IMG/VR virus record: IMGVR_UViG_3300043568_000787
Span: 1 to 49,157 of that record
DNA from: a virus
Length of the DNA: 49,157 nt
Direction: 5' to 3' (one strand)
The first letter of the stretch is position 1. Each line of letters starts with the position of its first letter. The notes beneath the pieces are model-generated. The model had not been told where the DNA came from. It did not search any database and saw only the letters and a list, made by a program, of their open reading frames with translations. Shown here piece by piece: positions 4,745 to 25,368 of the stretch. The position numbers and the translations under genes were made by a program.

Positions 4745-7201
4745 TTATCCTGCGAAATCGCCTAGGGCTGCGTTGTTAGCTGATATTTGATCATCTGTCA
4801 GTGGAGCTGTTTGTGGTCCTTCTGCAGCCCACTCTGTTATTCTTGCCTGAGTAGCTTCATCGTCTTCTGCAGCATATTCATTTTCTGTAGGCGCTGAAGC
4901 TGTCTGTGGAGGCTTAGTGCTCTTAACTTCTTGACCTGGTAATCTACTTAATTTTAAAGTTTGTGTAAATTTACCTCTCCTAAAATTAGACGTAACAAGC
5001 GTGACAAGATAAAGTCCACTAAACTGTGGAACTCCAGCGGTTGTACTAAAATCATACACACCATCTTCTAGGTTAATATCAATTGGAGTTCTAAAATTAA
5101 CAGTAATTAATACTCTGCCGCTTTGATAATTCATTGCTCCGTCAGCATTGATAAATTTATTATCTGTAGCCACTGCGCTATAGTTGCCCATACCACTGTC
5201 TCCTAGGAAATAAGGATCTCCTAGAATTGTTAAATTCAAATTGATCATGCTAGTATTGCTAGTAATGCTGTCGTGGAATTGTCTAGCGGCAATACTGGCA
5301 TTATCGTCAAGGCCGCCACCTCCTTTGCCGCCAGTCATGGTCATAATTCCGTCTTTTAATACAGTAGTGGGAATTTGTCCTTCTTTAGGTTTTTCACCGT
5401 CTGGTGTTTTATTATCTGGATCGCCTTCTACTCCAGAGCCAGCATTTGCTTTTTGCTCTTTATCTCCGCTATTCTTGCCGGCGTCGGCGCTCATCTGTGT
5501 AAAAAAGCTGGCATTAAATTCTATATCAAAATCCATTACATCTAAATTTTTGCCTGTATAGATATAATTGTATTCTTTAATAACTTGTTCTTTGGCTTTT
5601 TCTGTTCCAGGGTTTGGAGTGTTCGGAGGTAAAAATGCGCTGGCAGAAGCATCGTAAGGAACAATTCTATAAACAATTAATTTAGGCTTAACCCCTGTTT
5701 TTTTAATATTTTCATCTGAAGGAATATAGTACAAGTGTGTTTCAACTCTCCACCACTGTACTGTACCTTCAGGAGTTATTTGACTTAGAGCGGTTCTTCC
5801 GTATTCGCTCATCAAGATCACTTGATTGATAGCGTTAACAACATCGCTGCCTTGGGTAAATTTAAATTCACTAGATTCAGGATTGATAGAAATAGCGCCA
5901 CGCTTGTAAGTTCCAGATTTTTCATCGTAGGCAAGATTATCTTTAGCAAACGGAGTAGCACCTTTATTATACAAGTTGAATCCCATTGTACTTTTACCAA
6001 CATCATTCATTTCAGATTCATCTTGTACTTGTGTTTTGTTAATGCTGCTGGTGGTGACTCCTAGTTTTTTAAACAAGTTCATGTCCCCACCAGATGAACT
6101 ATTAGGGTTTATGGTTGCACCAGCACTAGAAGTAGAATCATTACTGGGAGGATTAGCATCACCTGTTTTTAAATCTTTAGGAAAACTAATTAATATTTGA
6201 TCAGCCACAACAACATCTTTACGTTTGACTGCTTCATTTAAACGTGTATTCAAAACTGCTTGTAAACTTTTCTCTCCAGTTTGTAACATTTCTCCCACAT
6301 TTTTTCCTGTTATCGACACATCTGTTTTTAATTCAGAATATACTTTACTATAGGCTTTTTCGTTAACTGGGTATGCAGAAATGTCATACTCGGCACCTTT
6401 GCCTGTGGCTCTCATGGAAAATTTATAAAGTTTAATAGGAAAATATTTTGTTGTTTTATCTATTTGTACGTTTTGTAAATCGGCATCAATATGTCCTTTG
6501 AATTCCATACTTAGTAACAGGGGCATTTCCAAATAATTCACATGACCCACATTTTTTGCAGCAACTTGTAATGTTTGAAAAAACATTCCCATACTGTAAG
6601 GTTCGATCAATTTAAATTTAAGGCCCGTGGCATTGGTATTACCAGTACTTTGATCAAAACCTACGGAACTATTGATCTGTACATCTTCAATATAAAAATC
6701 AAAACTGCCGTCAGGGTTTGATTTTGTTTTGTTTGCGGTAGGTACCCTGTCTGAAGGGTTGCCGTTGCCGCTTTTTAAAATTATTGGGCCTAATAGACCT
6801 TTACGATAAGTCTCATTTGGAAAATTTAAACTGGCATCATCTAATACACTTAATGTGAAAATATAATTGTAACTGGCATATTGATGAAGTATGTTAGGAA
6901 ACGGCGGTTTAGCTTCTAACGCCACTTGCGTCTGGGCCTTGGTAGCGTTTTCAGTAAGATTACCTAACTTGTTTATGTTACTTTTAGCTTGTTGTATGGC
7001 GTTTTCTAATTCGGCAACCCCTGGCAAACTAGAAGTGATGTTACTTATGTTGACGCTTAATCCTGATTTAATAGCATTTGCAGCACTGGTGATACTATTA
7101 CTGGCAGCTGAAAGACCTTTAGCAACACCTGTATCCGATAAAACTTTATTAACTGTGTTAGAAGCAGTGGTGGCAGCACTGGCAAGATCAAAAGATGGCA
7201 T
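4745..7201 (-). CDS. Putative baseplate hub / virion structural protein, 818 aa
   Basis: I cannot name this protein with certainty. It starts with an Ala/Ser/Asn-rich helical segment (residues 1-90) and continues with beta-rich sequence. The C-terminal part has FSGLYLVTLVTSNFRRGKFT followed by QTLKLSRLPG, a pattern common at the end of tail-hub proteins. Residues around 160-210 (DFYIEDVQINSS ... FKLIEPYS) also look hub-like. It lies between gp53 and gp5, and no separate gp27 gene is seen in the window. A role as the ring to which the gp5 spike binds (gp27 equivalent), possibly fused to extra domains, is my inference. An AGGAG lies 5 bases before the ATG, inside the end of gp53. A generic 'virion structural protein' label is the safe call. 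Confidence 0.6.
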   Translation of the reverse strand: MPSFDLASAATTASNTVNKVLSDTGVAKGLSAASNSITSAANAIKSGLSVNISNITSSLPGVAELENAIQQAKSNINKLGNLTENATKAQTQVALEAKPPFPNILHQYASYNYIFTLSVLDDASLNFPNETYRKGLLGPIILKSGNGNPSDRVPTANKTKSNPDGSFDFYIEDVQINSSVGFDQSTGNTNATGLKFKLIEPYSMGMFFQTLQVAAKNVGHVNYLEMPLLLSMEFKGHIDADLQNVQIDKTTKYFPIKLYKFSMRATGKGAEYDISAYPVNEKAYSKVYSELKTDVSITGKNVGEMLQTGEKSLQAVLNTRLNEAVKRKDVVVADQILISFPKDLKTGDANPPSNDSTSSAGATINPNSSSGGDMNLFKKLGVTTSSINKTQVQDESEMNDVGKSTMGFNLYNKGATPFAKDNLAYDEKSGTYKRGAISINPESSEFKFTQGSDVVNAINQVILMSEYGRTALSQITPEGTVQWWRVETHLYYIPSDENIKKTGVKPKLIVYRIVPYDASASAFLPPNTPNPGTEKAKEQVIKEYNYIYTGKNLDVMDFDIEFNASFFTQMSADAGKNSGDKEQKANAGSGVEGDPDNKTPDGEKPKEGQIPTTVLKDGIMTMTGGKGGGGLDDNASIAARQFHDSITSNTSMINLNLTILGDPYFLGDSGMGNYSAVATDNKFINADGAMNYQSGRVLITVNFRTPIDINLEDGVYDFSTTAGVPQFSGLYLVTLVTSNFRRGKFTQTLKLSRLPGQEVKSTKPPQTASAPTENEYAAEDDEATQARITEWAAEGPQTAPLTDDQISANNAALGDFAG

Positions 7202-8590: not shown

Positions 8591-9415
8591 ATGAAAGTTA
8601 ATTACTTAAACAACAAAGATTTATTAGAAGAAATACACAAAAGCAAAAATACATTCTGCTCATTTACCCAACCAGAATATCATCGTTATGATTTGATATT
8701 GCCCACTGTTGATAAAATTAACATTCGAACTGTTGCTGAAGCTAAACGGGCACAGGCCAAACGAATGAGTCAAGAGGCGTATGCTCGACGTAAAGCTGCC
8801 GGGGAAAAAGTCAAACAAGCAGACTGCGAAGTGGACTATAAAAAGATTGCTAAAACAGACATTGTGTTTAGAATTATGTCGTTTGAGCACATTCCGTTAA
8901 ACGGTACCCGTAAAAAAAATCCAAAGACCATAGCGGATCATAGAGATAAAGTTAATTTTCCTCCATTTCAACACTGGAAGTTCGACGATAAAGATATTTT
9001 AGTATGTGTTGGAAAAAGTCACTGGAAGGGTGATTTAGAAACTGGTAAATTTAACAAAGATCACGGGCAGATTACAAATACACTTGCCCGTATGTACATT
9101 AAATTATGTGAACGATATGCCACAAGAGGCAATGTACGAGGTTATACTTACAACGACGAAATGAAAGGACAGGCTATTTTACAACTAACACAAATTGGTT
9201 TACAATTTGATGAAAGCAAAAGTGATAACCCATTTGCCTACTTTACGGCAGCGGTGACTAACAGTTTTGTTCGCATTATTAATTTAGAAAAACGTAATCA
9301 AAATATTCGTGACGACCTATTGGAGATGAATGGCATGAATCCTAGCTACAGCAGAACTGGCGCTGGTGAACATGCAAATGCTATAAAACGTTTCGAAGGT
9401 GAATCAGGTGAGTAA
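8591..9415 (+). CDS. 55: Late-transcription sigma factor gp55
   Basis: This 274-aa protein is the T4 gp55-type sigma factor, which binds host RNA polymerase core and recognises the late TATAAATA box. The N-terminus MKVNYLNNKDLLEEI matches the T4 NNKELL start. The sigma region-2-like part lies at about 155-250, with ITNTLARMYIKLCERYATRG, YTYNDEMKGQAILQLTQIGL and QFDESKSDNPFAYFTAAVTN. Between them is an insertion of roughly 120 residues, rich in Lys/Arg, with FPPFQHWKFDDKDIL and CVGKSHWKGD. T4 gp55 (185 aa) lacks it, but I recall a similar arrangement in marine cyanophage gp55. The gene heads the early-type operon and overlaps gp47. Confidence is high. Confidence 0.93.
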   Translation: MKVNYLNNKDLLEEIHKSKNTFCSFTQPEYHRYDLILPTVDKINIRTVAEAKRAQAKRMSQEAYARRKAAGEKVKQADCEVDYKKIAKTDIVFRIMSFEHIPLNGTRKKNPKTIADHRDKVNFPPFQHWKFDDKDILVCVGKSHWKGDLETGKFNKDHGQITNTLARMYIKLCERYATRGNVRGYTYNDEMKGQAILQLTQIGLQFDESKSDNPFAYFTAAVTNSFVRIINLEKRNQNIRDDLLEMNGMNPSYSRTGAGEHANAIKRFEGESGE

Positions 9416-10421
9416 TTTATTTAAAAAAGTTGCTTGCTTTACAGACATACATTTTGGATTAAAATCAAACAGTCAAACACACAATCAAGACTGTGAAGAT
9501 TTTGTTGATTGGTATATTGCAAAGGCCAAGGAGAACGGATGTGATACAGGTATTTTTATGGGCGATTGGCATCACAACCGCAATAGTCTTAATATTACAA
9601 CTATGGACTACAGCCTTAGAGCCCTTGAGAAACTGGGACAGGCTTTTGATAAGTTTTATTTCTTTCCTGGTAATCATGATCTTTATTACAAAGACAAGCG
9701 GGATATTCACAGCGTCGAATTCGGAAAGTATATTCCTGGAATTACTGTGGTACACGAACCTACTACTATTGGCGACGTCACCTTATGTCCGTGGCTTGTC
9801 GGAGACGAATGGAAAACCATAGGCAAGAAAGGTGGCAAATATATCTTTGGTCACTTTGAATTGCCCAGTTTCTTCATGAATGCCATGGTTCAGATGCCGG
9901 ATCATGGTGAAATTCAGTTGGATAGTTTTAAAAACTACGAACTTGGGTTTAGCGGACACTTTCATAAACGACAACAACGTCAAAATATGCATTACATTGG
10001 TAATGCGTTTCCGCACAACTATGCTGATACGTGGGACGACGAACGCGGCATGATGATTTTAGAGTGGGATGGTGTGCCCCAGTATATTAACTGGACAGAG
10101 TGTCCTAAATTTAGAACTATTAAATTAAGTCAGTTGATTGACGAAGCAGATACGCTGATTACCAGCAAGATGCATCTGCGAGTAAGTCTCGACATTGACA
10201 TCAGCTACGAAGAAGCTAGCTTTATCAAGGAAAAATTTATTAGTGATTATGATATTAGAGAACTAACACTGATATCTGAAAAGAAAGAAGTTGAAATCAA
10301 TACTGATATCAATATACAAGCATTTGAAAGTGTGGATCAAATTGTGAGCAATCAGTTGGTCAATATCGAAAGTGACACTTTCGATAGTAAAGTATTATTG
10401 AGTATCTATAATAGCCTATGA
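9408..10421 (+). CDS. 47: Recombination endonuclease subunit gp47 (SbcD/Mre11-like)
   Basis: This is the nuclease subunit of the gp46-gp47 complex, which resects DNA ends for recombination-dependent replication and host DNA breakdown. All metallophosphoesterase motifs are present: FTDIHFG near the N-terminus, MGDWHHN, PGNHD, FGHFE and SGHFHKRQ. The length of 337 aa matches T4 gp47 (339 aa). I take the GTG at 9408 as the start, because an AAGG lies about 8 bases upstream and the protein then begins VSNLFKKVACFTD; a GTG at 9399 in the same frame is the alternative. It overlaps the end of gp55 and shares ATGA with gp46, so the three are translationally coupled. Confidence 0.93.
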   Translation: MSNLFKKVACFTDIHFGLKSNSQTHNQDCEDFVDWYIAKAKENGCDTGIFMGDWHHNRNSLNITTMDYSLRALEKLGQAFDKFYFFPGNHDLYYKDKRDIHSVEFGKYIPGITVVHEPTTIGDVTLCPWLVGDEWKTIGKKGGKYIFGHFELPSFFMNAMVQMPDHGEIQLDSFKNYELGFSGHFHKRQQRQNMHYIGNAFPHNYADTWDDERGMMILEWDGVPQYINWTECPKFRTIKLSQLIDEADTLITSKMHLRVSLDIDISYEEASFIKEKFISDYDIRELTLISEKKEVEINTDINIQAFESVDQIVSNQLVNIESDTFDSKVLLSIYNSL

Positions 10422-12199
10422 CAATTAAAATTAAAGAACTAACTGTTAAAAATTTCATGAGTGTGGGTAATCAAACCCAAGCGGTAGACTTCTGTAAAGA
10501 ACAACTTACCCTTGTACTAGGTGAAAACCTAGATCAAGGTGGAGATGACAGTGGAAGCCGTAACGGTACCGGTAAGACTACCATTATCAATGCCTTAACC
10601 TATGCGTTATACGGCACAGCATTGACCAATATCAAGAAAGATAACTTGATCAACAAGATCAATGGCAAAAACATGTTGGTTACACTGAGTTTTGAAAAAG
10701 ACGGTAACAAGTACAAGATTGAACGGGGTCGCAAACCTGCTATCATGAAGTTCTATGTGAACGATCAAGAACACTCTGTTGACTCTGCTGATGACAGTCA
10801 AGGTGACATGCGGGAAACGCAAAAGGACCTTGATGACTTAATGGGTATGAGTCACGATATGTTTAAGCATATCTTGGCTTTGAATACCTATACCGAACCG
10901 TTCTTAAGCATGAAAGCCAACGAACAACGTGCTATCATTGAACAACTGTTAGGCATTACCTTACTAAGTGAAAAGGCAGAGGCTCTTAAAGAGCAAGTGA
11001 GAGTAACTAAAGATCAAATTTATCAAGAGAACGCAGATATCGAAGCTGTAAAGAAGTCTAATGAAAAAATTCAATTGAGTATTACTGGTTTGGAGACAAG
11101 ACTGAGTGCTTGGTATGCTCAGCAACGAACAGATTGCGATAGAATTACCAAGTCCATAGAAGAACTACAAGCAGTAGACATCGAACGAGAACTCACAGCT
11201 CACGCTAAGTTAAAAACATACAATGAGCAAGCAGCTAAAATAAAAAGCCTTAACAAAGAAAAGGCCACAATTGAAACTGCGTTAATTCAAGCTGATAAAA
11301 GTGTAACCAAATACACAAAAGAAATAGAGCAACTAAAAAATAACACTTGTCCAGCTTGTGAGCAAGAGCTACACACCCACAAGCATGAAGAAATGTCCGT
11401 GCTTGCTGAAAAGAATCTAGCAGATGCTTACACATATCTTCAAAGCCTCAGTGATAGCTATGCTATTATTGTGACTGAGCTTGAAGGTATCGGCGATATC
11501 AACGGTAGGCCAACAACTTATTACGATACACTAGAAGAAGCTCTTAAACATCAAAACAATTTAACCAGTTTAGAAACTGCGTTGGGTGCTAGACAGCAAG
11601 AAACAGATCCTTATCAAGAACAAATAGATGATTTGCGTAATACTGCGCTTCAAGAAATCACATGGGATAGCATAAACAATCTCAATGTACTTAAGGGCCA
11701 TCAAGAGTTTTTGCTCAAGTTGCTGACCAGCAAAGATAGTTTTATCCGTAAAAAGATCATAGATCAAAATCTTGCCTACCTTAATAATAGGCTTACCTAC
11801 TATTTGGATAAAATGGGATTACCCCACACAGTGGTATTTCAAAATGATTTAACTGTGGAAATTACACAACTTGGGCAGGATCTAGACTTTGACAATTTGT
11901 CACGTGGAGAACGCAATAGGTTAATTTTAGGATTAAGCTGGAGTTTTAGAGATGTGTGGGAAAGTTTGTATCAAAGTATCAACTTGTTATTCATTGATGA
12001 ACTTATTGACAACGGACTAGATGCCGCAGGCGTAGAAAATGCCTTAAGTGTCTTAAAGAAGATGGCTAGGGAACGTAAGAAAAACATTTATTTGATCAGT
12101 CACAAGGACGAATTAATCGGACGAGTGAACAATGTACTCAAAGTGATTAAAGAAAATGGATTCACTAGCTATGCTAATGACTTAGAAATTGAAAATTGA
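10418..12199 (+). CDS. 46: Recombination endonuclease subunit gp46 (SbcC/Rad50-like ATPase)
   Basis: This 593-aa SMC-like ATPase partners gp47. The Walker A motif GSRNGTGKTT has its lysine at residue 53. Coiled-coil arms rich in Glu, Lys and Gln flank a zinc-hook CPAC at about residue 310. The ABC signature LSRGERNRLIL is near residue 495 and Walker B LLFIDELID near 525. T4 gp46 is 560 aa. The ATG overlaps the gp47 stop (ATGA), and its own TGA overlaps the next ATG. The role in recombination and replication is established for the family. Confidence 0.95.
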   Translation: MTIKIKELTVKNFMSVGNQTQAVDFCKEQLTLVLGENLDQGGDDSGSRNGTGKTTIINALTYALYGTALTNIKKDNLINKINGKNMLVTLSFEKDGNKYKIERGRKPAIMKFYVNDQEHSVDSADDSQGDMRETQKDLDDLMGMSHDMFKHILALNTYTEPFLSMKANEQRAIIEQLLGITLLSEKAEALKEQVRVTKDQIYQENADIEAVKKSNEKIQLSITGLETRLSAWYAQQRTDCDRITKSIEELQAVDIERELTAHAKLKTYNEQAAKIKSLNKEKATIETALIQADKSVTKYTKEIEQLKNNTCPACEQELHTHKHEEMSVLAEKNLADAYTYLQSLSDSYAIIVTELEGIGDINGRPTTYYDTLEEALKHQNNLTSLETALGARQQETDPYQEQIDDLRNTALQEITWDSINNLNVLKGHQEFLLKLLTSKDSFIRKKIIDQNLAYLNNRLTYYLDKMGLPHTVVFQNDLTVEITQLGQDLDFDNLSRGERNRLILGLSWSFRDVWESLYQSINLLFIDELIDNGLDAAGVENALSVLKKMARERKKNIYLISHKDELIGRVNNVLKVIKENGFTSYANDLEIEN

Positions 12200-12441: not shown

Positions 12442-12448
12442 CTAGTTG

Positions 12449-12886
12449 ATGTCATGGTATTATCAAAACACAATAGTCGAAACCTTACCTGAAGTATGTA
12501 TTGGATTTGTCTATTGTATCACTAATAACATCACTGGTCGAAAATATATAGGCAAGAAATTATCAAAATTTTCTAAAACAACTTATAAAACAGTAAAACT
12601 CAAGAACGGCACCAAGAAGAAAAAGCGGATTAAATCCAAAATTGATTCTGACTGGCGTGAATACTATGGCTCAAACGACCAACTAAACAAAGACGTAGAA
12701 CAACAAGGCAGAGAAAATTTCCATAGAGAAATAATTTATTACTGCACATCAAAGGCTGAATGTAGTTATATCGAGGCAAGAGAACAATTCTCCAGGCGGG
12801 TATTAGAATCAGATGACTACTACAACGGACAAATCGCTGTTCGTGTACACGGCTCACACATCAAAGGCAAACAACTAAACGGTTAA
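12449..12886 (+). CDS. GIY-YIG nuclease-fold protein, SegE-like
   Basis: This 145-aa protein carries a GIY-YIG-like N-terminal motif: GFVYCITNNITGRKYIGKK (about residues 19-37), where VYC replaces GIY and KYIG provides the second half. A basic stretch, NGTKKKKRIKSKI, and DSDWREYYGSND follow. C-terminal residues include the acidic EAREQF, a candidate for the metal-binding glutamate of this fold. Similar proteins occur in T4-like phages as free-standing homing-type endonucleases (Seg family). It begins 8 bases after the previous gene with no clear ribosome site, and is followed at once by a hairpin-rich non-coding region. Fold assignment is good; activity and any homing role are inference. Confidence 0.7.
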   Translation: MSWYYQNTIVETLPEVCIGFVYCITNNITGRKYIGKKLSKFSKTTYKTVKLKNGTKKKKRIKSKIDSDWREYYGSNDQLNKDVEQQGRENFHREIIYYCTSKAECSYIEAREQFSRRVLESDDYYNGQIAVRVHGSHIKGKQLNG

Positions 12887-13199
12887 GGCTTCCACCGGCT
12901 AATCTCGGGTGGCGAACAGAAGAAACCTGGACCCAGTGTCGCAGGGATCCGTAGACTCTTGCCGTTAAGAGCACTCAATCAGTATCCTTTACAGGACCAG
13001 GATCGCAAAGCTGCCGCGGTTTGATTGTTTCAAGGATTTCAAAGGCAAAAAGAGGGAGAAATACCCACGTTTGCTAGCATGTTAGCGTATGTTAGTGGAC
13101 CGCCGTCATAATAAAGACACAGCTCGAGGTACCGGATGACCGCCTCTGTAACTGCTGTAACGCTAAGTGGATTGTGCAACTCAGATAATGTTCAATTTT

Positions 13200-13219
13200 C
13201 TTTGCCCGCAAGGGCAAAG
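13200..13219 (+). other. Perfect 8-bp hairpin with GNRA (GCAA) tetraloop
   Basis: CTTTGCCC at 13200-13207 and GGGCAAAG at 13212-13219 pair without mismatch around GCAA, a classic stable RNA tetraloop. Neither strand has a T-run after it, so it is not an intrinsic terminator. Flanking GTTCA (13190-13194) and TGAAC (13226-13230), then GATT and AATC, extend the stem. Confidence 0.7.
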
Positions 13220-13297
13220 TGTGACTGAACAATCTAGATAATACTTAAATGCTTCGCATTAATAATAAAGAAAATAGTTCGAGCGTGAGCGAAGAAC

Positions 13298-13316
13298 AGT
13301 TGAACGTAGTTCAACT
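13298..13316 (+). repeat. Perfect inverted repeat just before the late promoter of the next gene
   Basis: AGTTGAAC-GTA-GTTCAACT is an 8-bp perfect palindrome with a 3-base spacer, ending four bases before the ATAAATA box. As RNA it is a hairpin followed by TT and AT-rich sequence, so it could be a weak terminator or an RNA 3' end; as DNA it could be a protein site. Confidence 0.55.
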
Positions 13317-13320
13317 TTAA

Positions 13321-13333: not shown

Positions 13334-14656
13334 ATGAAAGTCCATCAAATAGTCTCTGAAAGAACTGAATCATTGAATGAAGCCGTACCTCTTGTAATAG
13401 CAGGTATTGGAATAGGTACAATAATTACCGCAATCTCTGTAGGCATGAGTGCTTGGAGTGCCTACGAAATATACAAATTCATTGGCAAATACAACCAAGA
13501 TCCTGAATCAATTACTGACGACGAATGGAATGATCTATTCATAGATGCTGTACTATTGTTTACACCTGGCTTTGCCAAGCTGGGTAAAGCAGGAATACTT
13601 AAACTTATTCCTAAGTCATGGCAAAGTAAAGGCGGCAAGTGGTTAAAAAAGAAAGTTACTGAGCGTCTTGCCCAATTAGAAAAAACAGTAGCTAAAACAG
13701 AAAAAATAAACTTGAGAAAATTTGACCCTGACAGTAAAGTAGGGTTTGAAAAAATTAAAGCCTACTTAAAAATGCGTGGTGCCAATGCTTCCATGAAGGC
13801 AGCAGCCCAGGCAAGGATGGGATTTATACCCGATGTAGCCATGACTGTGATAAAAACTGTTGTGGGTTTAGAATTTGTAAGAGAATACTACGTGGATTTG
13901 TCCGTGTTAGAGGAAGACTACCAAGATTATAAAGCTGGCAAAGATTCTCCTTTTGGAAAAATGTCAGAGCAAGAAGCCTATAACAAGTATCAACAGTTAA
14001 GAAAGAAACTGTTAGGAGAATTGGCCATTGGTGTTGCCTTAAATACTGGAGTGGCCAGCAAATTCTTTGGCGCAATGTCAGGCATGTTTAAAGGTATTGC
14101 CACAGGTGCAGCTACACTGGGCGGCGCCAGCATTACAACAACAAAATATTTAGGTATGTTTGTTAGCTTGCCTACTAACGTGGCAAAAGGTATTTCTAAA
14201 TTAATTGAAATGGGGCCTGCGGCCCCAGCTTTCTTGATATTCATGCGTACCAGTGCTGGTAAAGAATTTTTAAATAGTTCTTTGGTAAGAGCAATTACTG
14301 AACCAACAGGGGCATTGACAGCAGCCGCTATTGATTTACTAGAAAAAGGATTACAGGAAGCTGGACTACTAGATGGTCCACTACCTGGTAAGACCGCAGT
14401 AAAACCACCAACTGGTGATGCTGCCGATGGCGCAAGACAAGCTACAAATGGTATGAATATTCAATGGGTTGGCAAGAAACTTTACATTAATAATCAACAA
14501 ATTAGTGATGAAAATGGATATCGTCTAGTAGGCAACGACAAACTTAATGACATAAAAGCTAGGGTTGGTGTTGCCGGCATTCCTGATCCTACTTTAAAAA
14601 TACAGGACGACCCTAAGAAAAAATACGGCGTCTATGGTTACGACGAAATTAAATAA
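13334..14656 (+). CDS. Putative packaged/injected virion protein with capsid-targeting-like N-terminus
   Basis: I do not recognise this 440-aa protein as a named family. Its first 17 residues, MKVHQIVSERTESLNEA, resemble T4 capsid-targeting peptides (MKTYQEFI...EA) and end in LNE-A, which fits the gp21 protease consensus (L/I)-x-E. Hydrophobic or Gly/Ala-rich segments follow at about 18-50, 75-95 and 235-315 (for example VIAGIGIGTIITAISVG and ELAIGVALNTGVASKFFGAM), with a basic stretch PKSWQSKGGKWLKKKV between. Such membrane-active composition would suit a protein packed in the head and ejected with DNA. It lies alone between the early operon and convergent gp26 genes, with a late promoter box directly before it and a terminator after it. 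Virion location and function are inference. Confidence 0.6.
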   Translation: MKVHQIVSERTESLNEAVPLVIAGIGIGTIITAISVGMSAWSAYEIYKFIGKYNQDPESITDDEWNDLFIDAVLLFTPGFAKLGKAGILKLIPKSWQSKGGKWLKKKVTERLAQLEKTVAKTEKINLRKFDPDSKVGFEKIKAYLKMRGANASMKAAAQARMGFIPDVAMTVIKTVVGLEFVREYYVDLSVLEEDYQDYKAGKDSPFGKMSEQEAYNKYQQLRKKLLGELAIGVALNTGVASKFFGAMSGMFKGIATGAATLGGASITTTKYLGMFVSLPTNVAKGISKLIEMGPAAPAFLIFMRTSAGKEFLNSSLVRAITEPTGALTAAAIDLLEKGLQEAGLLDGPLPGKTAVKPPTGDAADGARQATNGMNIQWVGKKLYINNQQISDENGYRLVGNDKLNDIKARVGVAGIPDPTLKIQDDPKKKYGVYGYDEIK

Positions 14657-23335: not shown

Positions 23336-24520
23336 ATGTCAGAACTACTATCAAGCCGTTGGAACGAAACCAAGGAAGCCCTATTAGAAGGCCTACAAGG
23401 CAATCGTAAAACATCGATGGCTGTAACATTAGAAAACACTCGCAAGTATCTAGCAGAAAGTGCGTCAGCAGGCGCAACTTCAGCAGGTAACGTTGCTACA
23501 CTTAACCGCGTGATCCTTCCAGTGATCCGTCGTGTTATGCCAACCGTTATTGCTAACGAGTTGGTTGGCGTTCAGCCAATGACCGGTCCAGTTGGACAAA
23601 TCCACACTTTACGTGTTCGCTATAGCGATTCATCTACAGGTGCTGGAGTTGTTGCTGGTGAAGAAGCATTCAGCCCATTCAAGATTGCTGAATCTTATTC
23701 TGGTAACCAAGTTTCAGGAACTCCTAAGGCAGCTACTACAGCCAACTTAGAAGGTGCTGCTGGTAACAGAATGAGCATTCAAATCTTGAAACAAACAGTT
23801 GAAGCTAAGACACGTAAGCTATCAGCTCGCTGGACATTTGAAGCTGCTCAAGATGCACAAGCCCAACAAGGTATTGACATCGAAGCAGAAATCATGGCTG
23901 CTCTTGCTCAAGAGATCACAGCTGAAATCGACCAAGAAGTTCTTGCTTCTTTAAGCACTTTAGCTGGTGCAGCTACACAGACATACGATCAGAGCTCAGT
24001 ATCTGGTGTTGCTACATTCGTTGGTGACGAACATGCCGCATTGGCAGTTCAAATCAACCGTGTTGCTAACTTGATTGCTCAACGTACACGTCGTGGCGCA
24101 GGTAACTGGGCTGTTATCAGTCCAATGGCATTGACAATTCTTCAAAGTGCTACAACTAGTGCGTTTGCTCGTACTACAGAAGGCACATTCGAAGCACCTA
24201 CAAACACCAAGTTTGTTGGTACATTGAACAACGCTATGAAGATTTATGTTAACACATACGCTTTAGAAAGCGGCGGATTTGACAACGTTCTAATCGGCTA
24301 CAAAGGTTCTAGCGAAGCAGATGCGGCAGCATTTTATTGCCCATATGTTCCGTTGATGAGCAGTGGTGTTGTATTAGATCCATCAACATTCGAACCAGTC
24401 GTTTCATTCATGACACGTTATGGTTATGTTGAGTTAACAAACACAGCGTCATCTCTTGGTAACGCTGCTGACTACTTAGGCAAGGTTGCTATCACTGCTG
24501 CCGCTGTCAAGTTCAGTTAA
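23336..24520 (+). CDS. 23: Major capsid protein gp23
   Basis: This 394-aa HK97-fold capsid protein has clear gp23 motifs: NRVILPVIRRVMPTVIANEL, VGVQPMTGPVGQIHTLRVRY, LSARWTFEAAQDAQAQQGID and GNWAVISPMALTIL. T4 gp23 is 521 aa, so this is a shorter marine-type version. The N-terminal helical propeptide contains TRKYLAE-SASAG; cutting after Glu41 by gp21 would leave a mature protein of about 353 aa. AAGGAG lies 7 bases upstream of the ATG. A strong terminator follows the gene, as expected for the most abundant late product. No gp24 gene follows. Confidence 0.97.
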   Translation: MSELLSSRWNETKEALLEGLQGNRKTSMAVTLENTRKYLAESASAGATSAGNVATLNRVILPVIRRVMPTVIANELVGVQPMTGPVGQIHTLRVRYSDSSTGAGVVAGEEAFSPFKIAESYSGNQVSGTPKAATTANLEGAAGNRMSIQILKQTVEAKTRKLSARWTFEAAQDAQAQQGIDIEAEIMAALAQEITAEIDQEVLASLSTLAGAATQTYDQSSVSGVATFVGDEHAALAVQINRVANLIAQRTRRGAGNWAVISPMALTILQSATTSAFARTTEGTFEAPTNTKFVGTLNNAMKIYVNTYALESGGFDNVLIGYKGSSEADAAAFYCPYVPLMSSGVVLDPSTFEPVVSFMTRYGYVELTNTASSLGNAADYLGKVAITAAAVKFS

Positions 24521-24586: not shown

Positions 24587-24599
24587 CATAGTAATGATT

Positions 24600-24656
24600 C
24601 ACATAGTGTGAGTTTTATGCGGAAATCCAACCGCGTACAGCCTAGAACGCTGTTAT
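24600..24656 (+). promoter_or_regulatory. Structured 5' leader with three consecutive hairpins
   Basis: TCACA-TAG-TGTGA (24600-24612), ATGCGG...CCGCGT with an eight-base loop (about 24617-24636), and CAGC...GCTG (about 24640-24654) lie in tandem between the late promoter and the ribosome site AAGGAG. They could stabilise the message or control translation of the next gene. Confidence 0.5.
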
Positions 24657-24675
24657 TTCTTAAGGAGAAAATAAA

Positions 24676-25368
24676 ATGGGACGTCCTTTACATAAAAAAT
24701 TCTTTGGTAACCGAAACATCGGTTCCGCAAGCGTAACCACTGATGATGGCATCGGTGGCAGTCGAGTAGGCAGTGTTACTGTGGGTGGTGTCAACAACTC
24801 TACAGGTTATACCACTGGCGGCGCAGTTACATTCACGCAACCACAACTACCAGGCGGCGTTCAAGCTACCGGCACAGTGGTAGCCACTGCAGGTGCTATT
24901 GTCAGCATCACAATAGTGGAAGCAGGTTCGGGTTACACATCAGTTCCTACAGTAACAGCAGGCACAGGTACAATTGGCACAACCACTCTCACAGCCGTGT
25001 TTCAAGTGGACACAGGTGCAGTAAGTACAGCAACCAATCAAGAAAATGCCATCACAGTGTTTGCTTTTGTCACAGGCGGCAGTCGCAAAGTTGGAGACAT
25101 CATCAAACAAGTATCCGGCACACGCTACAAAGTTAGAACAGCAGACGGCACTATGATTTGTAAATTAAAAGCATCAGCCGCATCAGCCGCAGGTGAAATG
25201 GATATACAGGCCACAGATGCAGCAGCAGGCACATATTTTGTGACCAAACTGACATCACACAGAGCCAGACTGACTCAAGGCACTGGCACAGTGTATGCTA
25301 ACAATACTTCACATGCTTGGACATTAGGTTCTGCTACTGCCACAGTGGCTAAGATTCCTAACGCTTAA
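24676..25368 (+). CDS. Virion structural protein, possible head decoration, 230 aa
   Basis: I cannot name this protein. It starts MGRPLHKKFFGNRNIGSASV, continues with Gly/Thr/Val-rich beta-type sequence including VEAGSGYTSVPTVTAGTGTI, and ends in mixed sequence. The GSGYTxxPTV motif recurs in phage fibre and decoration proteins and also appears in the 1802-aa protein here. A strong AAGGAG and a dedicated late promoter right behind gp23 suggest high expression, which would suit a capsid decoration or abundant structural protein. That role is inference. Confidence 0.6.
   Translation: MGRPLHKKFFGNRNIGSASVTTDDGIGGSRVGSVTVGGVNNSTGYTTGGAVTFTQPQLPGGVQATGTVVATAGAIVSITIVEAGSGYTSVPTVTAGTGTIGTTTLTAVFQVDTGAVSTATNQENAITVFAFVTGGSRKVGDIIKQVSGTRYKVRTADGTMICKLKASAASAAGEMDIQATDAAAGTYFVTKLTSHRARLTQGTGTVYANNTSHAWTLGSATATVAKIPNA

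Follow-up and report, generated by a model that had tools for sequence, protein, structure and literature searches.

The motif Polynucleobacter-1 (Rfam family RF01718) is scored as probably cis-regulatory and assigned to 'Burkholderiales, fresh water/estuary' in Table 1 of Weinberg et al. (2010; PMC2864571), where it is not called a phage RNA. Within the open-access journal literature, this is the only paper in which 'Polynucleobacter-1' or 'RF01718' was found, and a table of the Rfam 15 paper is the sole place where the name of a second family, cow-rumen-2 (RF02947), was encountered. GOLLD, ROOL, and OLE are large structured RNAs, of which GOLLD and ROOL occur in phages and have no function assigned to them in the sections of PMC12286853 that concern them. 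The RNA analyzed here is likewise large and structured; however, it lacks a gathering-level match to the Rfam families of these three, and there is no tRNA in the window, the whole stretch of DNA of 49,157 bases that was analyzed. The full RF01718 model matches the 5′ part of the RNA; however, the model ends at position 13030 and does not include the pseudoknot domain, the twin 7-mers, and the 3′ hairpins of the RNA.

The window is a virus record of a T4-like phage, as indicated by PHROGs matches to a late sigma factor, gp47-like and gp46-like proteins, a portal protein, and a major head protein. The RNA stretch 12887–13317 is flanked by the stop codon of a GIY-YIG gene (12886) and the ATG of the next gene (13334). 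A preliminary description of the locus claimed that these 431 bases contain no convincing gene, which is borne out: the largest listed open reading frame within them has at most 46 codons for amino acids, and no frame of the + strand is kept in 36 homologues. The frames of the + strand are open across the core in 0, 1, and 0 of the 36 homologues, those of the minus strand in 9, 4, and 9, and stop-to-stop runs, taking the longest of each RNA, have a median of 68 codons and a maximum of 127. The hidden conserved reading frame looked for in these homologues was not found, and the RNA thus lacks the conserved open frame of a protein-coding gene. ARAGORN detects no tRNA or tmRNA genes in the window, and there is no Rfam match in it to self-splicing intron, tRNA, or tmRNA families.

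Two families reach the gathering level in an Rfam 15 scan of the window. One is RF01718, which matches 12887–13030 with an E-value of 1.3e-15 and a model that is not cut off. The other is the freshwater-2 RNA RF02980 at 24597–24678 on the + strand (74.3 bits, cut-off 49.9), located between the gp23-like major head gene, which ends at 24520, and a gene starting at 24676. Matches to CRISPR-DR57 and RefA5 lie below gathering and were rejected as chance level. The remaining 287 bases of the RNA (13031–13317) match no Rfam 15 family at the gathering level. In blastn comparisons with related viral contigs, 13031–13317 is frequently matched over a longer stretch than the Rfam part. Because these 287 bases are conserved and covary, RF01718 represents the 5′ third of an RNA of ~430 nucleotides, and its boundaries do not describe the whole RNA. 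The earlier statement that no known RNA class could be recognized is therefore wrong for the first third and correct for the other two thirds; the match to a known family is restricted to 12887–13030 and is not to a tRNA. The claim of a wholly new RNA class does not hold. The full architecture, the place in T4-like phages, the probable link to cow-rumen-2, and the twin 7-mers are new as far as has been searched.

Table 1 Features of the RNA locus. Positions are those of the window; E-values are from the covariation test on 124 sequences and paired cells are from 36 homologues.
Feature	Position	Strand	Evidence
gp47- and gp46-like recombination nuclease genes (9399-10421, 10418-12199), upstream	9399..12199	+	PHROGs SbcD/SbcC-like
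SegE-like GIY-YIG protein, 146 aa, immediately upstream of RNA	12446..12886	+	Pfam PF19835, 111.7 bits
Whole structured RNA, ~430 nt	12887..13317	+	Length and sequence conserved downstream of GIY-YIG gene; covariation throughout
5′ domain, RF01718 Polynucleobacter-1 RNA	12887..13030	+	cmscan 80.7 bits, gathering 37, model 1-141 complete
Helix P1 (12892-12896/12908-12912)	12892..12912	+	12894-12910 E 6e-5, 12896-12908 E 4e-3
Junction-closing helix P4 (12976-12980/13023-13027)	12976..13027	+	12980-13023 E 8e-7, three further significant pairs; 93.3% of cells paired
Helix P6 (13002-13006/13016-13020)	13002..13020	+	13004-13018 E 3e-5, 13006-13016 E 5e-5
Hairpin P8 (13073-13080/13089-13096), loop GTTAGCGT	13073..13096	+	13073-13096 E 0.016, 13080-13089 E 0.038
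Pseudoknot PK2 (13105-13109/13136-13140)	13105..13140	+	13107-13138 E 2e-5
Helices P10 (13119-13123/13154-13158) and P11 (13126-13129/13143-13146)	13119..13158	+	13120-13157 E 2e-9, 13121-13156 E 3e-7
Copy 1 of variable 7-mer (AGATAAT in window), after invariant CTC	13183..13189	+	Equal to copy 2 in 124/124 aligned and 177/177 blind
Hairpin P12, GCAA (GNRA) loop, between the two 7-mers	13200..13219	+	76.6% paired; alignment register slips
Copy 2 of variable 7-mer, after invariant TCT	13236..13242	+	Identity with copy 1
3′ hairpin P13, GTGA (GNRA) loop	13277..13297	+	Two helix parts 62.4% and 98.5% paired
3′-terminal hairpin P14	13299..13315	+	91.6% paired; both partners changed in 6/7 pairs; gaps in 15-20 of 36 rows
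Downstream gene, 440 aa, variable body, conserved N-terminal leader (MKVHQIVSE)	13334..14656	+	Leader pattern

Covariation has been evaluated with a script of our own, written in the manner of R-scape but not R-scape itself, which uses a G-test with average product correction and a null in which parsimony substitutions are moved along a FastTree tree. In the main alignment of 124 sequences that are <90% identical, 30 column pairs reach E < 0.05. Twenty of these are standard pairs in at least 77% of the sequences and lie in helices 5′ as well as 3′ of the Rfam boundary; one pair among the twenty, 12881-12963, extends into the GIY-YIG gene and was set aside. Four pairs are direct-repeat pairs, and the other six connect neighboring-register or non-pairing columns. 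An earlier run with 56 sequences gave nine pairs, seven of them standard and one other the repeat pair 13183/13236. When the named structure was scored with a separate tool in 36 homologues, 86.3% of the cells were paired, compared with at most 42.9% with slid partners. Changes on both sides occur in 53 of the 75 pairs, and the number of both-side-changed cells is 363 versus 121 ± 10 when shuffled and 50–118 when slid. Covariation across homologues, in the 124 as well as in the 36 sequences, thus runs along the whole length, and the large structured phage RNA that had been proposed is real. Thirty chosen pairs include 257 G·U cells versus 33 A·C cells, and therefore the + strand is the structured strand. 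The folding energy is unremarkable (z −1.54; 5 of 100 shuffles as good) and alone would not have revealed the structure.

The helices differ in how well they are kept. The weak ones are P2 (69.8% of cells paired), inner P3 (58.8%), P7 (62.0%), outer P8 (70.4%, the inner part of the same hairpin reaching 94.4%), P12, and P13, whereas all scorable cells of the pseudoknot PK2 are paired in the 36 homologues, and its pair 13107-13138 is exclusively U-A (65) or C-G (59) in the 124 sequences. Helices P10 and P11 enclose the conserved motif GGTACCGGATGACCGCC. The loop of P1 also pairs, through 12898-12899, with 12888-12889 (12888-12899, E 0.04). Non-Watson–Crick covariation is present in the 5′ domain at 12985/12997, which is U with C or C with U, and at 12988/12992; perhaps it reflects two loop types of P5. 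The preliminary description included neither the pseudoknot nor the twin 7-mers. The long bulged stem that it placed at 13119–13158 corresponds to P10 and P11. Its GNRA-capped stem at 13170–13234 survives as the inner hairpin 13200–13219; by eye, the outer part is not kept in the alignment. Its three-way junction closed by GATCC at 12946 and GGATC at 13000 finds no support, as 13002–13006 pairs with 13016–13020 and the closure is formed by P4.

The two copies of the variable 7-mer flank a GNRA hairpin near the 3′ end of the RNA. Their columns covary by identity, not by complementarity, at a fixed offset of 53 columns (13183/13236, 13187/13240, 13189/13242, and 13178/13231). The copies are identical in all 124 aligned sequences, which contain 10 types of the 7-mer. 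The arrangement CTC-N7 ... TCT-N7 with identical N7 is present in 178 of 181 distinct RNAs, with 13 types, and lacking in L058, L114, and L131; this search picked the closest pair of 7-mers. In a register that is blind to identity, 177 of 177 RNAs have identical copies, versus 20% for randomly paired copies; the blind pattern is lacking in four of the 181 RNAs, the same three and L312. Position 8, just beyond the 7-mer, is the same in only 20 of the 177. The tree of the 124 sequences requires at least 39 changes of 7-mer type; for position 13183 the minimum is 23, in both copies. The association of 13183 with 13236 has a G of 172, and that with the next-best column of the RNA a G of 26. The triplets in front of the copies are invariant in the 124 sequences, yet different from each other.

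No partner strand in cis was found for the 7-mers within the RNA, and an RNA's own 7-mers are not enriched in its flanks (direct 96 versus 98.9 expected, reversed 94 versus 94.8 expected). A candidate third strand at 13026–13030, with neighbors to 13024, matches 5-base parts of the 7-mers by wobble in at best 98 of 124 sequences. It was rejected because the segment hardly varies and can wobble-pair with any RRAUR word, because the match fails in eight of nine GCATAAT types, and because none of its columns is among the top eight associated with any variable position of the 7-mer. A stop codon or programmed bypass was likewise dismissed: most 7-mers have the form NNA-TRA-N, but ACGAAAT, AGATCAA, AGACGAA, and ACTTAAA do not, and the + frames are not kept. 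A helix of AGAT at 13183–13186 with ATCT at 13232–13235, proposed by RNAalifold, is on reading broken in the GCAT and GAAT types.

Related viral contigs were collected with the GIY-YIG protein and the gp46 protein, using for each the best 80 loci among the matches listed. Two scans of 50 related records each put RF01718 above its cut-off in 35 and 37 of them, respectively, and many of the others are short fragments. A covariance model of the core 13100–13243, here called R1, which is mostly sequence-driven and has nine base pairs, matches intact in 69 of the best 80 GIY-YIG loci, and three more have truncated matches. Fewer than 350 downstream bases are available in nine of the 11 GIY-YIG loci without an intact match, the exceptions being L034 and L067. 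In total, 221 intact R1 matches were kept, which represent 181 distinct RNAs, 178 in viral and three in bacterial contigs. Among 50,697 phage records, blastn found no match of isolated phages to the RNA of the window or to three divergent copies. Two copies, L087 and L131, lack internal stretches of about 118 and 67 bases, respectively, of the equivalent of 13031–13317, which are natural deletions or assembly artefacts.

The GIY-YIG gene is upstream on the same strand in 158 of the 162 loci with enough sequence, and the distance between the GIY-YIG match and the core match is below 400 bases in 149 and at least 1000 bases in eight of them. The four RNAs without the gene are L236, in which a RusA-like/PDDEXK gene takes its place, L279, L307, and L340. 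Another open reading frame lies between the GIY-YIG gene and the RNA in L018, L029, L035, L036, L059, and L076. The GIY-YIG protein has a weak PADLOC match to homing endonucleases, and relatives of it occur in 481 phage records. In Melnitz and C48C1 the annotation places such a relative near ribonucleotide reductase genes, with no gap of 450 nucleotides, and neither phage matches R1. The preliminary description suggested that the RNA might be linked to the adjacent nuclease; the four loci without the gene, and the lack of a GIY-YIG domain among the neighbor proteins of bacterial RNA copies that were searched, leave this suggestion unsupported. A catalytic RNA was suggested as well, and none of the features observed points to catalysis.

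On the other side of the RNA, the next mechanically called open reading frame of at least 60 aa is co-directional in 87 of 143 loci and opposite in 56, with 38 of the 181 loci being too short. A same-strand gene follows the RNA in the window, namely gene 13334, but such an arrangement, typical of a cis-regulatory RNA, is not general across the loci. Co-directional downstream genes mostly start 440–515 bases past the GIY-YIG stop codon. An open reading frame of at least 100 aa follows the RNA closely in 97 of the 181 loci, and 83 of these 97 have the N-terminal leader, versus 26 of 939 other mechanical open reading frames of at least 150 aa from the same loci. The co-directional genes differ in body and length, while the leader is common to most of them. 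Gene 13334–14656 itself has no Pfam, PHROG, or PADLOC match. The gene adjacent to the RNA in L307 resembles phrog_15752, a protein kinase with which phages inhibit transcription of the host. Between the RNA and gene 13334, TAAATAAATA reads like a T4 late promoter.

Internal proteins of T-even phages combine a variable body with a constant short N-terminal leader that targets them to the capsid (PMC3012670). The gene downstream of the RNA resembles them in both respects; however, the likeness concerns the neighbor gene, and no structured RNA is mentioned in the sections of that paper on internal protein loci. By analogy, the leaders of the RNA-adjacent genes may be capsid-targeting sequences, and 13334–14656 is perhaps a locus of exchangeable, injected proteins.

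The RNA also occurs in some bacterial genomes. A pattern scan of bacterial genome contigs gave 34 matches, three of which, L356, L354, and L340, are clearly confirmed by R1. The Methylococcales contig L340 belongs to genome G117, and five of the 201 genomes in the family of G117 contain RF01718; we take this to be a methanotroph family, probably Methylomonadaceae. One of the five genomes has two copies, and the contigs reach 228 and 153 kb. In 369 genomes of the class, R1 with stricter filters detects only the already known copy. The bacterial copies have twin 7-mers as well: of the four loci read, three share AGATGAA, and the fourth, which is diverged, has ACTTAAA. This diverged copy lies in the 153-kb contig, surrounded by genes that are usual for bacteria (histidine kinase, short-chain dehydrogenase, PilY1). 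Phage contamination of draft genomes could account for the short contigs L340, L354, and L356. All five bacterial copies checked, two of them in stretches that are 94% identical, are accompanied by a divergent gene whose leader is of the same kind; the copies in L354 and G318 are not among these five. Near the bacterial copy in L501, two genes match a library of defense genes, a TIR effector-type gene at 9374–10228 (PF10137, PDC-S35) and an NYN-domain gene at 5632–6360 (HEC-09).

The middle domain of the RNA is probably related to the cow-rumen-2 RNA, after whose Rfam name the RNAs of the second family are called rumen-type here. By eye, the two share in the same order a hairpin with a UUAGC-type loop, GCCGYCAU, a stem, a ACAGGAUGACC loop, and UAA, repeats around a hairpin follow, and both occur in viral contigs. 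By contrast, the 5′ part and the neighbors differ, and the rumen-type repeats are shorter and looser than the 7-mers of the window RNA; by eye they are recognizable in many RNAs and often imperfect in others, for example in L390 and L420. When viral contigs were scanned with a pattern of the cow-rumen-2 core, at least 120 stretches were obtained, many of them fortuitous and within genes. Tightening the pattern reduced the matches listed to 40 distinct rumen-type sequences, and thinning reduced these to 30; five of the 30 (L380, L426, L428, L443, and L468) appear to be chance matches, and the others have their parts in the same order. Many rumen-type RNAs have, by eye, a sigma-70-like promoter before them and a TATAAATA-like sequence after them. 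RF02947 exceeds its cut-off in three of ten rumen-type records, the viral contigs G686, G687, and G688 (L408, L433, and L458; 424, 411, and 137 kb), which hold four, three, and two copies; the other seven, pattern matches with spacings of 60–70 bases, have no RF02947 match. L458 also carries a tmRNA gene with the tag ANTYAMAA.

Covariance models connect the two families weakly. RF02947 scores 16.7 bits in the window, well short of its cut-off of 66, and exceeds this cut-off in none of 50 related records, the best reaching 21.8 bits. It weakly matches the place of the RNA in 25 of 50 freshwater-type records, with 20 full-length matches at 14.3–21.8 bits; three more weak matches lie elsewhere, two of which (17.6 bits) beat the RNA's own match in that record, and one of 14 control genomes also has a weak match. 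In the opposite direction, the best R1 score on rumen-type RNAs is 22.8 bits (E 0.027), and most weak R1 matches fall on these RNAs. A model from 19 rumen-type cores, R2, was run on 40 sources and gives, up to an E-value of 1, eight matches, each of them located on the RNA: one is strong (L438, 62.4 bits), seven are at E 0.07–0.9, and the other 32 sources, including the window, have none. L438 bridges both families, since it also scores 20.1 bits with R1. The relation rests on motifs in a shared order, judged by eye, and on weak matches in homologues that are not independent of each other, and it is therefore called probable. A more tentative idea, to which we give somewhat less than even credence, is that RF01718 and RF02947 are fragments of one large RNA class of T4-like phages and bacterial elements, defined by a twin 7-nucleotide address with one changing partner. 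If true, this would be a 'twin-address RNA', with a free sequence of seven nucleotides, both copies of which are necessarily alike, and one partner that is recognized twice. We know of no described RNA class with such a duplicated address around a GNRA hairpin.

On balance, we lean towards a stand-alone, trans-acting RNA of ~430 nucleotides of T4-like phages, the two identical sites of which bind one partner. The 5′ and middle domains, with the junction and the pseudoknot, would form a rigid body, and the 3′ domain would present the same 7-nucleotide word on both sides of the GNRA hairpin. Both words would bind one and the same partner, which could be single-stranded DNA, a dimeric protein, or an RNA of either the host or the phage. 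A change of partner would demand a change in both copies, and it is therefore proposed to underlie the lockstep evolution of the 7-mers; the identity of all 177 blind pairs through at least 39 changes of type, together with the G of 172 against 26, favors such twin sites, while the looser rumen-type repeats speak against them. That the fold covaries over its whole length with a wobble bias for the + strand, and that the next open reading frame is reversed in 56 of 143 loci, is consistent with an RNA that acts in trans rather than as the leader of one gene. The sigma-70-like promoters seen by eye just upstream of the RNA in the GIY-YIG-less phage loci L307 and L279, and the isolated copy in the 153-kb bacterial contig, point the same way, as do the several rumen-type copies per record, which are relevant only if both families are related. 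However, the phages grouped with that of the window almost always hold the RNA at a single position shortly after the GIY-YIG gene, and no + strand promoter was found for it in this group; in these phages it may therefore be only the 3′ part of the gp46 transcript. The published cis-regulatory score, and the lack of a partner for the 7-mers in the RNA and its flanks, also weigh against a stand-alone RNA. The neighborhood, with its variable gene and capsid-targeting-like leader, suggests a role in host takeover or protection in the host.

The same constant position behind the GIY-YIG gene, with the entry 'cis-reg: y' for RF01718 in Table 1 of PMC2864571 and the common leader of 83 of the 97 closely following genes, would fit a cis-regulatory element, either a riboswitch or attenuator of the leader-bearing gene or a 3′-UTR that controls or protects the gp47-gp46-GIY-YIG transcript. 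We regard such an element as unlikely, given the 56 loci with a reversed neighbor, the six in which another open reading frame separates the GIY-YIG gene from the RNA, the different surroundings in L279, L307, and bacteria, where the leader gene is divergent, and the late-promoter-like TAAATAAATA in front of gene 13334. It is less probable still that the stretch functions partly as DNA, as a recombination, packaging, or mobilization site of T4-like phages and satellite-like host elements, with the 7-mers as crossover sites that need identity. Site-specific recombinases require identity in an overlap region of free sequence, which the strictly identical 7-mers resemble; a tRNA and an integrase-like gene, the latter with Pfam matches below curated cut-offs, lie beside the RNA in the bacterial contig L354, and leader genes of the same kind accompany the RNA in phages and in the five bacterial copies checked. 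However, the covariation is RNA-like with a G·U bias on one strand, the flanking triplets CTC and TCT are invariant but different, no inverted arms were seen, and both copies are kept with the hairpin span between them in 178 of 181 RNAs. A partner or guide of the adjacent GIY-YIG nuclease, for which the same-strand gene in 158 of 162 loci could be adduced, is very improbable, as the RNA exists without the gene, the relatives in Melnitz and C48C1 have no such adjoining RNA, and eight loci have at least 1000 bases between the two.

A motif listed since 2010 as short and probably cis-regulatory is thus one third of a large RNA, which many T4-like phages hold in a fixed place and which also occurs in some bacterial genomes. 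The twin 7-mers are a testable clue to its function, because any partner that reads them has to treat the two copies in the same way. Exchange of one 7-mer copy or of both could open a class of phage RNA.
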